Shown one piece after another: positions 20,990 through 24,541 of a stretch of 51,625 bases of DNA. A program made the position numbers and the translations under genes. The notes under the pieces are model-generated. The model made no database searches. It saw only the letters and a program-made list of their open reading frames with translations, and had not been told where the DNA came from. Source of the stretch: Bacteroidales bacterium (lineage in GTDB: Bacteria > Bacteroidota > Bacteroidia > Bacteroidales > VadinHA17); assembly GCA_003141895.1 (NCBI GenBank), contig PLNT01000013.1, positions 1 to 51,625 on the forward strand. The letters run 5' to 3'. Positions within the stretch are counted from its first letter, which is position 1. Each line of letters begins with the position of its first letter.

Positions 20990-22270
20990 TCATGCATTTT
21001 TGAATGCTTTTTTCCCTGCAAATTTGGAAGCACTGCCCAATGAATGTTCTATTCTCATTAGTTGATTGAATTTTTCAACACGTTCACCCCTGCATCCACT
21101 ACCAGTTTTCAGATGACCTGCATTAACTGCAACAGTTAAATCAGCAATAAAACTGTCAACAGTTTCTCCACTTCGGTGTGACACGAAGCAATTGTAGGAA
21201 TTCTTATATGCAAGTTCGATTGTTTCAAGAGTTTCGGTAACTGTACCTATCTGATTAAGTTTAATCAGTACTGCATTGGCAACGCCCTTCTGAATACCTT
21301 CAGTAAGGATTGCTTTATTGGTACAGAATAAATCATCACCAACAATTTCAATCTTCTTACCAAGAGTTTTGGTCATGTTATGCCAACCTGCCCAGTCATT
21401 TTCTGCCATACCATCTTCAATTAAAACAATTGGGTATTTGTTCACCCAACTTTCCCAAAGTTTTACCATTTCTTCGCTGGTAAGGAATTTCCCAGTGCTT
21501 TTAAATAATTTATACTTTCCGTCTTCCCACAATTCACTGGCAGCAGGGTCGAGGCATATACTGACTTCTTCACCTGCTTTATATCCCGCCTTTCCAATTG
21601 CTTCAAGAATTACTTCAATGGCTTCATCGTTCGATTTCAAGTCTGGAGCAAAGCCGCCTTCATCACCTACACCTGTACTATAACCTTTACCTTTTAACAC
21701 AGATTTAAGTGAATGAAAAACTTCAATACCCATGCGGATAGCCTCGGTAAATGTTTGAGCTCCATGGGGAGCAATCATGAATTCCTGAAAATCAACATTA
21801 TTGTCAGCGTGTTTCCCACCATTGATAATATTCATACATGGTACAGGCAACAAATGTGCATTGCTTCCACCTAAATAATTATAAAGTGGAACATCAGCAC
21901 TTAAGGCTTCTGCACGGGCATATGCCATTGATACTCCAAGTATTGCATTTGCACCAAGTTTCGATTTATTTGGTGTACCATCCATATTAATCATCGCATA
22001 GTCCAATTCACGCTGGCTTACAAAGGATTTACCTATTACTTCTTTAGCGATAATCCTGTTGACGTTTTCAACGGCTTTTAAAACACCTTTCCCACCATAT
22101 CGTTTTTTATCACCATCTCTTAATTCACATGCTTCACGTTCACCTGTTGAAGCACCGCTGGGTACTGCTGCTCTGGCTTCAGTTCCATCTTCGAGGGTCA
22201 AACTGACTTCTACGGTGGGATTTCCACGTGAGTCTAGAATTTCAAATGCTTGTACATCAATAATTTCCAT
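20990..22270 (-). CDS. eno: Enolase
   Basis: A 426-residue phosphopyruvate hydratase that converts 2-phosphoglycerate to phosphoenolpyruvate in glycolysis. It is full length, with the N-terminal [13 protein letters not shown], the [15 protein letters not shown] loop, catalytic residues in [12 protein letters not shown], Mg2+ ligands around [11 protein letters not shown] and VGDDLFCTN, and the signature [15 protein letters not shown] followed by SHRSGETVD. The start at 22270 is the standard [18 protein letters not shown]. It is transcribed from a promoter at 22348-22379 and ends at a strong hairpin. Confidence 0.97.
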
Positions 22271-22721: not shown

Positions 22722-23651
22722 TTATAATTTCAGGTTAGTTAGGCGTCCATTCAATAAATCGAGGTATTTGCCTTTCATATCTTTTGATAAAAAACTAATT
22801 TCGATTAAAGTCTTCCATTTAGGAATTGCTAAAGAGATTGTCTCCAGAACTTTTTCAATGCTCTTTTCAGTAAGTTCGCATCTTTCTATCCCAAAGTAAT
22901 TAACCAAAATAGTACGAGTTAAATGCTTCTTCTTCCCTTTCAATGTCAAAGCGATTTCTTCATGTTGTTCATTTAACTCAATTGTGGAATTAACCAAATC
23001 GTAACAGGGAGTTAACCTTATCTGATTATCAACGGTAATAATGGAAAAGTTTTTAAGATGCGAATCTTCATTGCCGATTAAATAGTTAAATATGACCAGT
23101 TTAAACAATTTTATTTTTTCAATCGCAGGGAATGTGCAATAATCATCGATCAACTTGACGATCATTTCCATGCTATAATTATACTTCGTATCTCTACTTA
23201 AACCAGCCAATTGAGCAAAATCTTCAACAGGAACTTTATCATTCTGTCCCTTTCTGTCAAACCGTTTGATGAAATAAGTTAGCGTGTTATCCTTTGACCA
23301 TAATAAACCATGTAAAGGAATTTCCAGATCGACCTCATTTGCCAACCTCATTGTGAGGTCTTCATTCTCGGGTAACTGAGTATAAAATTGATGTTGAGGC
23401 TTAAGTATATATCTGCCGCTTTTATCTACAATAATGAATTTTTCATCTTTAATGCTTAGTAAAGCACTTAATTTAGGCTGGACTCCCTGAATCGACATTT
23501 TGGATGCACGGTTGAAAGCCTCTTTACGTTGTTCTTCAGCAGTGTATTCAAGGTCTTTTAGTGTCTTCAGTCCAGTGCCTAAGAGCTTAAGACCTGCTTC
23601 ACTGTAACGATTTTTACCACAGGGTGTATATGTTATTGGGCATAGGTTCAT
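22722..23651 (-). CDS. hipT: HipT-like serine/threonine kinase toxin
   Basis: A 309-residue HipA-type kinase lacking the usual N-terminal subdomain, which is encoded separately next door. The gly-rich loop is SIQGVQPK at 53-60; Ser53 is the likely autophosphorylation site of the SxQ/SxS type seen in HipT toxins. Further motifs are ILKP (Lys84), LPENEDLTMRLA, catalytic Asp196 in GNEDSHLKN, and Asp218 in CYDLVNS. HipT of E. coli phosphorylates tryptophanyl-tRNA synthetase; the target here is not known. It overlaps hipS by 4 bp (ATGA), indicating translational coupling. Confidence 0.85.
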   Translation of the reverse strand: MNLCPITYTPCGKNRYSEAGLKLLGTGLKTLKDLEYTAEEQRKEAFNRASKMSIQGVQPKLSALLSIKDEKFIIVDKSGRYILKPQHQFYTQLPENEDLTMRLANEVDLEIPLHGLLWSKDNTLTYFIKRFDRKGQNDKVPVEDFAQLAGLSRDTKYNYSMEMIVKLIDDYCTFPAIEKIKLFKLVIFNYLIGNEDSHLKNFSIITVDNQIRLTPCYDLVNSTIELNEQHEEIALTLKGKKKHLTRTILVNYFGIERCELTEKSIEKVLETISLAIPKWKTLIEISFLSKDMKGKYLDLLNGRLTNLKL

Positions 23652-23962
23652 TCTATAATTTCTTTTACTGTAACAGCTCCAACCATGTCATCGCCAACTG
23701 CAATTAATTGTGAGAAATAATCCTTTTTGTCTACTTTCTTGATTTTTAATAACCCTTCAAGTTGGATACCCTCAGGTAATAATCCATCGAAAAATGGCGG
23801 GAACTTGTCAAACTTATACACCTGAATATTTTTGGGCATTGTCTTTGAGACTTCAAGACCTTCATAACCATCAAGGTATTCAAATAAATACTCTTTCCCT
23901 TGTCGTACTTCGGTCAAAGTTCCTGCCTCAACTCCTTTAACATATATCTTAGCCTTTCTCAT
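23648..23962 (-). CDS. hipS: HipS-like antitoxin (HipA N-terminal subdomain)
   Basis: A 104-residue stand-alone version of the HipA N-terminal subdomain 1: MRKAKIYVKGVEAGTLTEV, then FPPFFDGLLPEG, which is the family hallmark (PPFFxNLLPEG). In the tripartite HipBST systems of E. coli this protein, not HipB, is the main antitoxin that binds and blocks the kinase. It overlaps the upstream hipB-like gene by 14 bp and the downstream kinase gene by 4 bp. A split of an originally fused hipA by frameshift is less likely, because start and stop signals are well placed. Confidence 0.85.
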   Translation of the reverse strand: MRKAKIYVKGVEAGTLTEVRQGKEYLFEYLDGYEGLEVSKTMPKNIQVYKFDKFPPFFDGLLPEGIQLEGLLKIKKVDKKDYFSQLIAVGDDMVGAVTVKEIIE

Positions 23963-24191
23963 TTTTCACGCTTCGTAAATTGTCCATCAGTGGACTTGTT
24001 AATTCTATTTTGATGTTCAATACACTGAGTACCTTTCGTAAGGTATCCAATTGAATAGTTTCCTTCCCCTTCTCAATATCATAAATCACAGTTTTACCAA
24101 CTCCTGACATTTCTGCTAATTTGTCACGACTTAATTTAGCTGCTTTTCGATGCATCCTAATTATATCTGCTAATTCTTGAGACTGTATCAT
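23949..24191 (-). CDS. hipB: HipB-like XRE-family regulator
   Basis: An 80-residue protein with a lambda-repressor-type HTH: LADIIRMHRKAAKLSRDKLAEMSGVGKTVIYDIEKG, followed by a short dimerisation strand (LNIKIELTS). It is the DNA-binding component of the HipBST operon and should repress it through the three upstream operators. The longer frame starts with a TTG at 24221, inside the operator; the ATG at 24191 was chosen because it gives the standard start MIQSQELADIIR and leaves the operator non-coding. Confidence 0.85.
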   Translation of the reverse strand: MIQSQELADIIRMHRKAAKLSRDKLAEMSGVGKTVIYDIEKGKETIQLDTLRKVLSVLNIKIELTSPLMDNLRSVKNEKG

Positions 24192-24192
24192 T

Positions 24193-24212
24193 TTTACTGT
24201 TATAGCGGTAAA
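24193..24212. promoter_or_regulatory. HipB operator O1
   Basis: A 20-bp inverted repeat TTTACTG-N6-CGGTAAA, ending two bases before the hipB ATG. Its arms are complementary at 6 of 7 positions. It overlaps the -7 box of the candidate promoter. Confidence 0.7.
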
Positions 24213-24239
24213 TATAGTCAATTATTTTTAAAACCACAA
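24209..24239 (-). promoter_or_regulatory. Candidate hipBST promoter, TTG-N20-TATATTTA
   Basis: A minus-strand TTG (24237-24239), then 20 bp, then TATATTTA (24209-24216), one base from TAnnTTTG. The -7 box shares four bases with operator O1, so HipB bound there would block RNA polymerase. Confidence 0.5.
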
Positions 24240-24253
24240 GCATTTGGCAGTTT

Positions 24254-24273
24254 TTTACTGTTATGGCGGTAAA
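24254..24273. promoter_or_regulatory. HipB operator O2
   Basis: A second copy of TTTACTG-N6-CGGTAAA, exactly 61 bp from O1. It differs from O1 at one base (TTATGG versus TTATAG in the centre), and the flanking T-run and following AAAT are shared too. Confidence 0.7.
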
Positions 24274-24314
24274 TATTGGTGTAAAGATCCTCTATTATCG
24301 TTGAGATTGGATTA

Positions 24315-24334
24315 TTTACTGCTAAAGCGGTAAA
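24315..24334. promoter_or_regulatory. HipB operator O3
   Basis: A third copy of TTTACTG-N6-CGGTAAA with centre CTAAAG, exactly 61 bp from O2. Arms are identical to O1 and O2. Confidence 0.68.
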
Positions 24335-24377: not shown

Positions 24378-24407
24378 AAAAAACCTGCCATTTCTGACAG
24401 GTTTTTT
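24378..24407 (-). terminator. Terminator of tRNA-Pro
   Basis: A hairpin with arms AAAAAACCTGCCA / TGACAGGTTTTTT (one mismatch) and loop TTTC, about 60 bp past the 3' end of the tRNA, with a T-run on the minus strand. It also separates the tRNA from the hipBST control region. Confidence 0.8.
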
Positions 24408-24468
24408 ATCTTTTGGTTCAAAATCAGTTCAAAATATTTGTAACTACTTGATAATGAACCGTTAATGG

Positions 24469-24541
24469 TCGGGGTGAGAAGACTCGAACTTCCGGCCCCT
24501 ACGTCCCGAACGTAGTACGCTACCAACTGCGCCACACCCCG
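24469..24541 (-). tRNA. tRNA-Pro (anticodon CGG)
   Basis: A 73-nt cloverleaf: acceptor CGGGGTG / CACCCCG with discriminator A, D arm GCGC-AGTTGGTA-GCGT, anticodon stem CTACG / CGTAG with loop TTCGGGA (anticodon CGG, reading CCG), T arm GGAAG-TTCGAGT-CTTCT. All stems pair, allowing G-U at the stem ends. The C1-G72 pair and CGG anticodon fit proline. CCA is not encoded. The hipBST operon begins about 270 bp beyond its 3' end. Confidence 0.96.

Follow-up and report, generated by a model that had tools for sequence, protein, structure and literature searches.

Directly upstream of three overlapping minus-strand genes that form the operon hipB-hipS-hipT, the 51,625-nucleotide stretch of Bacteroidales DNA analysed here (hereafter the window) carries the same palindrome three times at equal distances. 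The question is whether this distance is under selection for helical phasing or was inherited from a tandem duplication of a 61-bp unit, the two alternatives offered in a preliminary description of the sequence. The pattern TTTACTG-N6-CGGTAAA has three exact matches at the locus (O1, O2 and O3 in Table 1), with start-to-start distances of 61 bp both times, which bears out the identical arms and the equal spacing given in that description. The remaining matches in the window comprise the three sites re-read on the opposite strand, at 2 mismatches, and four sites at 3; since a mean of 4.95 matches is expected by chance at this loose threshold (up to 3 mismatches), where 10 were counted, we put weight on the exact sites only. 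Related loci provide a better consensus of the operator, TTTACYGC-N4-GCRGTAAA. When the relaxed palindrome TTTACNG-N6-CNGTAAA was searched in the organism's own genome (4,010,930 bases), four exact places were found, i.e., O1 to O3 and one on contig C22, which sits within an unrelated 455-aa open reading frame and looks like a chance match. The genome-wide scatter of the motif that the preliminary description had set against its own proposal is therefore not observed, and a scattered regulon was rejected, the genome holding a single extra exact site inside a reading frame.

The operon shows the gene order of the Legionella pneumophila (Lp) type of HipBST, with the HTH, HipA N-terminal and HipA_C domains each encoded by a gene of its own, and its HipT is nearer to the Legionella protein (8ezr) than to that of E. 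coli O127:H6 (7ab4, E 1.2e-22). Proteins of the HipS type are the antitoxin in characterised systems. For hipB, an ATG start was favoured over the TTG (24221) of the listed reading frame. The operon is flanked by an enolase gene (20990-22270) and by a tRNA-Pro gene with a terminator-like hairpin (the region has two such hairpins, its shuffled versions 0.5 on average), and it may possibly be an insertion beside the tRNA gene. Carriage by phages was rejected, as HipT has no match at E 1e-5 in 50,697 phage records. In some relatives, hipT homologues carry internal stops (G041:C203 and G100:C55), and the module therefore decays in places.

Table 1. Features of the hipBST locus in the window (positions on the forward strand).
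Feature	Position	Strand	Remarks
hipT, HipA_C kinase toxin (predicted from domain matches)	22722..23651	-	PF07804 1.4e-45; HipT(Lp) 8ezr, E 1.1e-104
hipS, HipA N-terminal domain protein	23648..23962	-	PF13657 5e-20; TIGR03071 4.3e-23
hipB, putative HTH_3 repressor	23949..24191	-	Pfam HTH_3 4.6e-12; best solved match HipB(Lp) 8ezt, E 5.1e-19; ATG at 24191
O1, proximal HipB operator (putative)	24193..24212	-	1 bp from hipB ATG; overlaps -7 box
Putative -7 element TATATTTA	24209..24216	-	4-bp overlap with O1; TA pair 92% each in 25 loci
Putative -33 promoter element GCTTG	24237..24241	-	Columns 72-100% conserved in 25 loci of the 61-bp group
O2 (putative operator)	24254..24273	-	61 bp upstream of O1; adjoins upstream side of -33 box
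O3 (putative operator)	24315..24334	-	61 bp upstream of O2
Terminator-like hairpin	24378..24407	-	Between tRNA-Pro and O3; consensus match only
tRNA-Pro(cgg)	24466..24541	-	Next gene upstream, same strand

Promoter-like boxes and spacer divergence

The two spacers of the array were compared across the 25 loci of the 61-bp group. The O2-O1 spacer has a mean identity of 53% between loci and contains GCTTG and a TA pair just before O1, whereas the O3-O2 spacer, although equal in length, has an identity of 36% (32% when shuffled) and is devoid of comparably conserved boxes. In this 25-locus table, missing or weak third sites were set at the expected distance in some loci (e.g., L006, L008, L016, L019, L021 and L081); the 49-locus pair count, the 99-locus motif-free scan and the 149-locus triplet scan reported below assume no placement of the third site. 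The proposed boxes derive from the alignment of related loci, and we take them to fit the -33/-7 promoter type of Bacteroidota. A sigma-70-type promoter was rejected, the corresponding scan giving 2 matches for a shuffle mean of 1.9.

These boxes open the possibility that the promoter alone sets the spacing, with O1 and O2 marking either edge of the RNA polymerase site while HipB phasing plays no role. Such a reading would account for the position of the boxes within the O2-O1 spacer and for that of O1, which in most loci of the groups examined touches the hipB start codon or runs into it (with exceptions outside the 61-bp group), an in-frame ATG following O1 after 1-4 bp in 20/20 loci of the latter. 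We nevertheless regard it as unlikely: the O3-O2 spacing, of equal length without comparable boxes, stays unaccounted for, and the three periods described below differ by about 10 or 20 bp while O1 keeps much the same place.

A tandem duplication of the 61-bp unit, with spacers that have since diverged, would make the spacing a mere inheritance, and both the equal distances and the near-identical arms within the locus are what it predicts. Yet the two spacers of a locus are on average 32.9% identical, compared with 31.3% between loci and 31.8% in shuffles, and those of the window, whose 61-bp units the preliminary description had suggested aligning, are 24.4% identical and keep no trace of duplication. 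Within-locus identity being no higher than between loci or in shuffles, i.e., at chance level, a tandem 61-bp duplication is not supported. Furthermore, the O3-O2 length is kept though its sequence is lost, and other clades are equally spaced with unrelated operators. While an old and fully erased duplication is possible, we hold the duplication reading to be very improbable. Out of the two alternatives of the preliminary description, phasing is the one that is supported, since a distance of 61 bp (or, elsewhere, of 71 or 41 bp, which differ from it by about one and two turns) is kept across diverged spacers and other operators.

Operator spacing across HipBST loci

HipT relatives were drawn from 146 related genomes, from genome contigs (22 loci), from 395 phylum genomes and from 395 class genomes. 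The close set, with HipT identities from about 47% upwards, amounts to 49 distinct loci, leaving out exact duplicates, L018 and L056 (too short), L026 and seven distant loci; L023 and L025, in which hipT is broken or cut, are also absent from the table. When strong sites are defined by at least 12 of the 14 arm positions, adjacent sites form 37 pairs at 60-62 bp and 23 pairs at 70-73 bp, without any other adjacent distance, while non-adjacent sites lie at the doubles of these values (121-123 and 141-145 bp). Dinucleotide shuffles of the 49 upstream regions (200 each) produced 0.0 site pairs per locus. No site pair passed the strong threshold in 8/49 loci, and no mixed 61/71 array was seen among the 49. 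A lack of the sites in related hipBST loci, which the preliminary description had also set against its own proposal, is not observed, as most of these loci have them, the exceptions including L102 (HipT 48%), without a window-type triplet, and L026, a hybrid discussed below. Four loci (L028, L030, L116 and L138) display site pairs at three times the period, which suggests a fourth operator.

A pattern scan of the 395 phylum genomes, allowing any start-to-start distance of 46-76 bp, recovered 17 pairs in 9 genomes, i.e., the window's two at 61 bp and fifteen at 70-73 bp, with the reversed pattern used as a control matching in 5 genomes. Spacings of 72 and 71 bp also occur in L055, a record titled Oligoflexus and therefore outside Bacteroidota. 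In the HipT tree (computed with a quick method), the 61-bp loci of the window's family form a clade inside the 71-bp ones (27 rows, 98% SH-aLRT), L081 being an exception that has no firm place on the tree.

The more distant systems were studied without any given motif, by looking for 20-mers that are both palindromic and alike in 99 distinct hipBST loci (HipT 27-42% identical), in all of which (99/99) hipT is preceded by homologues of hipB and hipS. Pairs scoring at least 30 numbered 1.33 per locus against 0.003 in shuffles, with 64 at 39-41 bp, 16 at 60-62 bp, one at 50 bp and others at multiples of these distances, along with a few further pairs at other distances, plain tandem repeats among them. 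Near and far loci were then pooled in a triplet scan of 149 hipBST loci, L173 being too short, with significance set at the 99% shuffle level. Equally spaced palindrome triplets were significant in 115/149 loci, their periods falling at 39-42 bp (55 loci), 60-62 bp (36), 70-73 bp (17) or elsewhere (7), so that 108/115 belong to the three classes; in 10 of the 115 the score does not rise above the shuffle maximum of 75, and 34/149 loci gave no significant triplet in this motif-free scan. The significant but off-class triplets are those of L145, L126, L117, L127, L033, L113 and L079. Two of these, L113 and L126, have perfect tandem repeats upstream of hipB (65-bp unit; ACGTCACT-type) that are not operator arrays. 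In L033, the O3-O2 distance is 41 bp and the O2-O1 distance 50 bp, one spacer being about a turn longer, and this is the only clear case near 5 turns.

Two additional samples were scored in the same way. The second comprised 30 loci, one without a hipB match and five repeating earlier loci, and 19 of its 29 scored loci were significant, 17 of them at 59-63 bp (L200 and L219 being off-class); the third had 17/30 significant loci, all in the classes (15 at 40-42 bp and 2 at 61 bp). No significant triplet was found in 10/29 and 13/30 loci, respectively. The same period classes appear in 295 order genomes and 201 family genomes. Plasmid records of Bacteroides finegoldii, Parabacteroides distasonis, Phocaeicola massiliensis and Hymenobacter psoromatis have spacings of 41/41 bp, and that of Runella slithyformis of 41/40 bp, while two sites 61 bp apart are found in one B. 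thetaiotaomicron record, in another P. distasonis record and in Flammeovirga kamogawensis.

Altogether, the spacings are quantised, with class means of 40.37 bp (110 spacings), 60.99 bp (72) and 71.32 bp (34), corresponding to about 4, 6 and 7 turns of the double helix. The best common helical repeat of the three means is 10.34 bp; at 10.2 bp per turn they lie near whole turns, and at 10.5 bp all three deviate from whole turns by about -0.18 turn. For three periods drawn at random, so good a fit to one repeat has p about 0.003, a rough guide in which the class means are taken as given. There is almost no 5-turn class, a gap that simple phasing does not predict. On the HipT tree, in which 131 loci were labelled (23 by hand, L152 solely via its sister), with own labels for L170, L102 and L133 and without a row for L054 (interrupted hipT frame), at least five period changes and at least ten operator-family changes are counted. 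Because the period classes follow clades, the independent period changes are few, and the sample is almost wholly from Bacteroidota.

Operator families and HipB

The operator sequence differs among clades. Beside the window's family (TTTACYGC-N4-GCRGTAAA, with a period of 61 or 71 bp), we recognised the families TTATACCCGAWNRGGTATAA (40-41 bp), TTATATYYAANTRCATATAA (40 bp), AATCACATTATAATGTGATT (61 bp), AAGWGCANTATANTGCACTT (61 bp) and TGGTATCATATATGATACTA (60-61 bp). These sequences shift together with the recognition helix of HipB, which reads KTV(I/V)(Y/F)D, LRFIRD, LTVIRK and VNTLYK in the four largest operator families, and this co-variation ties the sites to HipB. In a hybrid locus, L026 (G098:C73, HipT match at 817-1656), the kinase core of HipT belongs to the window's clade (up to 62% identical), while HipB (up to 72%) and HipS (up to 70%) are those of the TTATACCC family, as are the operators, which are spaced at 41 bp. 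The make-up of this locus, whose hipT frame is open, indicates that the hipB-hipS block brings its operator and period with it; this make-up could result from recombination inside hipT or from a misassembly.

The sites might instead serve another regulator of the operon, a reading left room by the fact that HipB binding in this organism is something we infer. Here, three lines of evidence converge against it: operator families track the types of HipB recognition helix, the operator and period of the hybrid L026 go with hipB-hipS, and Legionella HipB binds an array of this sort in vitro (PMC10653801). We accordingly consider the involvement of a different regulator highly improbable.

Our preferred interpretation, which we hold to be likely on the basis of these sequence comparisons, is that HipB controls its own operon through O1 to O3, which would be selected for helical phase and form a cooperative array on the hipBST promoter. 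HipB would bind the three sites as a dimer, probably in complex with HipT or HipS-HipT, and repress the promoter presumed to lie between O2 and O1. Occupancy of O1 would block the -7 box and the hipB start, O2 would be filled just upstream of the -33 box, and O3 would act as an extra site. A whole-turn distance between operators (61 bp, about 6 turns) would keep the bound complexes in one rotational relation, in which they could repress cooperatively, the array taking the physical form of bridging contacts or of in-phase DNA bending. The two spacers of a locus resemble each other no more than shuffled ones do, and the O3-O2 spacer has retained its length without its sequence. The conservation of spacing despite changes in the sites themselves points to a conserved protein-DNA assembly that would depend on helical phase.

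Known systems and the meaning of the array

The closest known counterpart is the HipBST system of Legionella pneumophila (PMC10653801, PMC9325769), which has the same three genes and whose HipT and HipB are the nearest solved relatives of those of the window. According to the accessible text of PMC10653801, three evenly spaced HipB operators of 18 nt, separated by gaps of 53 bp, lie upstream of hipB as they do here, and HipB binds each of them in gel shifts. HipB-DNA and HipT-HipB-DNA complexes are reported there, along with data consistent with a HipS-HipT-HipB-DNA complex (PMC10653801). By summing site and gap from that text, we obtain a period of 71 bp, different from the 61 bp of the window but within the range of its sister loci (70-73 bp), and we treat this difference as variation within the HipBST family and not as a defining feature. 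Two further differences are that the Legionella O1 lies 24 nt upstream of hipB, whereas the O1 of the window abuts the ATG, and that two of the Legionella operators are asymmetric (PMC10653801), the two systems being likened here by layout and not by operator letters. With the Legionella triplet already on record, the array of the window is of a known kind with another period. New, as far as the searched literature goes, is that spacings change in turn-sized steps, that they do so whatever the operator sequence, and that this is widespread in Bacteroidota. In its accessible part, PMC10653801 gives no spacing classes and no reason for the three evenly spaced sites, and the word "helical" is absent from its main text; among the openly licensed PMC papers listed in our searches, none besides this one deals with helically spaced HipBST operators.

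The E. coli systems are less alike. In E. coli O127:H6, HipBST is also a tripartite operon repressed by HipB (PMC10627512, PMC6581861, in the text available), but its HipT is far more distant, as seen above, and the Legionella operator motifs are reported to be absent from this strain (PMC10653801, accessible text). There, HipB alone represses at high level, and leaky hipBT or hipBST is enough to cut transcription (PMC10627512, same restriction). The hipBA system of E. coli K-12 also has several palindromic HipB operators upstream of hipB, but it is a two-gene system in which TATCC-N8-GGATA occurs four times with uneven spacings of 28, 39 and 28 bp, in agreement with the other sequences and spacing that the first reading of the locus had attributed to E. 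coli HipB. These spacings do not follow the whole-turn rule, and K-12 hipBA was rejected as a uniform array. Outside of the Hip systems, NrdR offers a parallel as a repressor that works with its boxes at either 15-17 or about 26 bp, a difference of about one turn (PMC12051234, available text), though it has two boxes and is an unrelated protein.

In Bacteroides fragilis, an element of three repeats without cas genes, located immediately upstream of hipB in 71 strains, was described in 2017 as a CRISPR with a possible regulatory role (24-bp repeats, 39-bp mean spacer; PMC5704556, as far as its accessible text goes). Its likeness to our array lies in the three repeats adjoining hipB on its upstream side and in the lack of cas genes; it differs in that repeat and spacer sum to 63 bp, not exactly 61, and the two are compared by description only. 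The repeats of the window could then be read in the same manner, as a short cas-less CRISPR-like array, for which their repeat-spacer-repeat look and the B. fragilis element itself (PMC5704556) would speak. We find this scarcely credible, however, as the repeats have two-fold symmetry and change along with HipB, one of the "spacers" (O2-O1) has conserved promoter-like boxes, and no Cas protein is present among the 7 neighbouring and 3 operon proteins scanned. Of the two stretches that would be CRISPR-type spacers, O2-O1 has promoter-like columns conserved between loci and O3-O2 is near random between species. Conversely, the orphan "CRISPR" of B. fragilis may be a HipB operator array. B. fragilis is absent among the matches listed in the plasmid searches with two Bacteroidales HipT proteins.

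To a more general proposition, we give about even credence. In the HipBST systems of Bacteroidota, and in the published Legionella one, a sequence-independent rule would place three, sometimes four, HipB sites at a uniform 4, 6 or 7 turns (about 10.2-10.3 bp per turn), with DNA measuring out the distances within an ordered HipB-HipT(-HipS) array, the type of operator and its period travelling with hipB-hipS and not with the kinase core, and the B. fragilis element being one such array.

The array of the window bears on how a tripartite HipBST system couples the state of its toxin to transcription. Steps of about one turn, kept while the operator sequence was replaced several times, make the proposed phasing directly testable with a series of spacer lengths, and they provide a sequence-independent signature of HipB-type control in a phylum whose switches are little studied. 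They could also recast the reported "CRISPR near hipBA" as an ordinary operator array.
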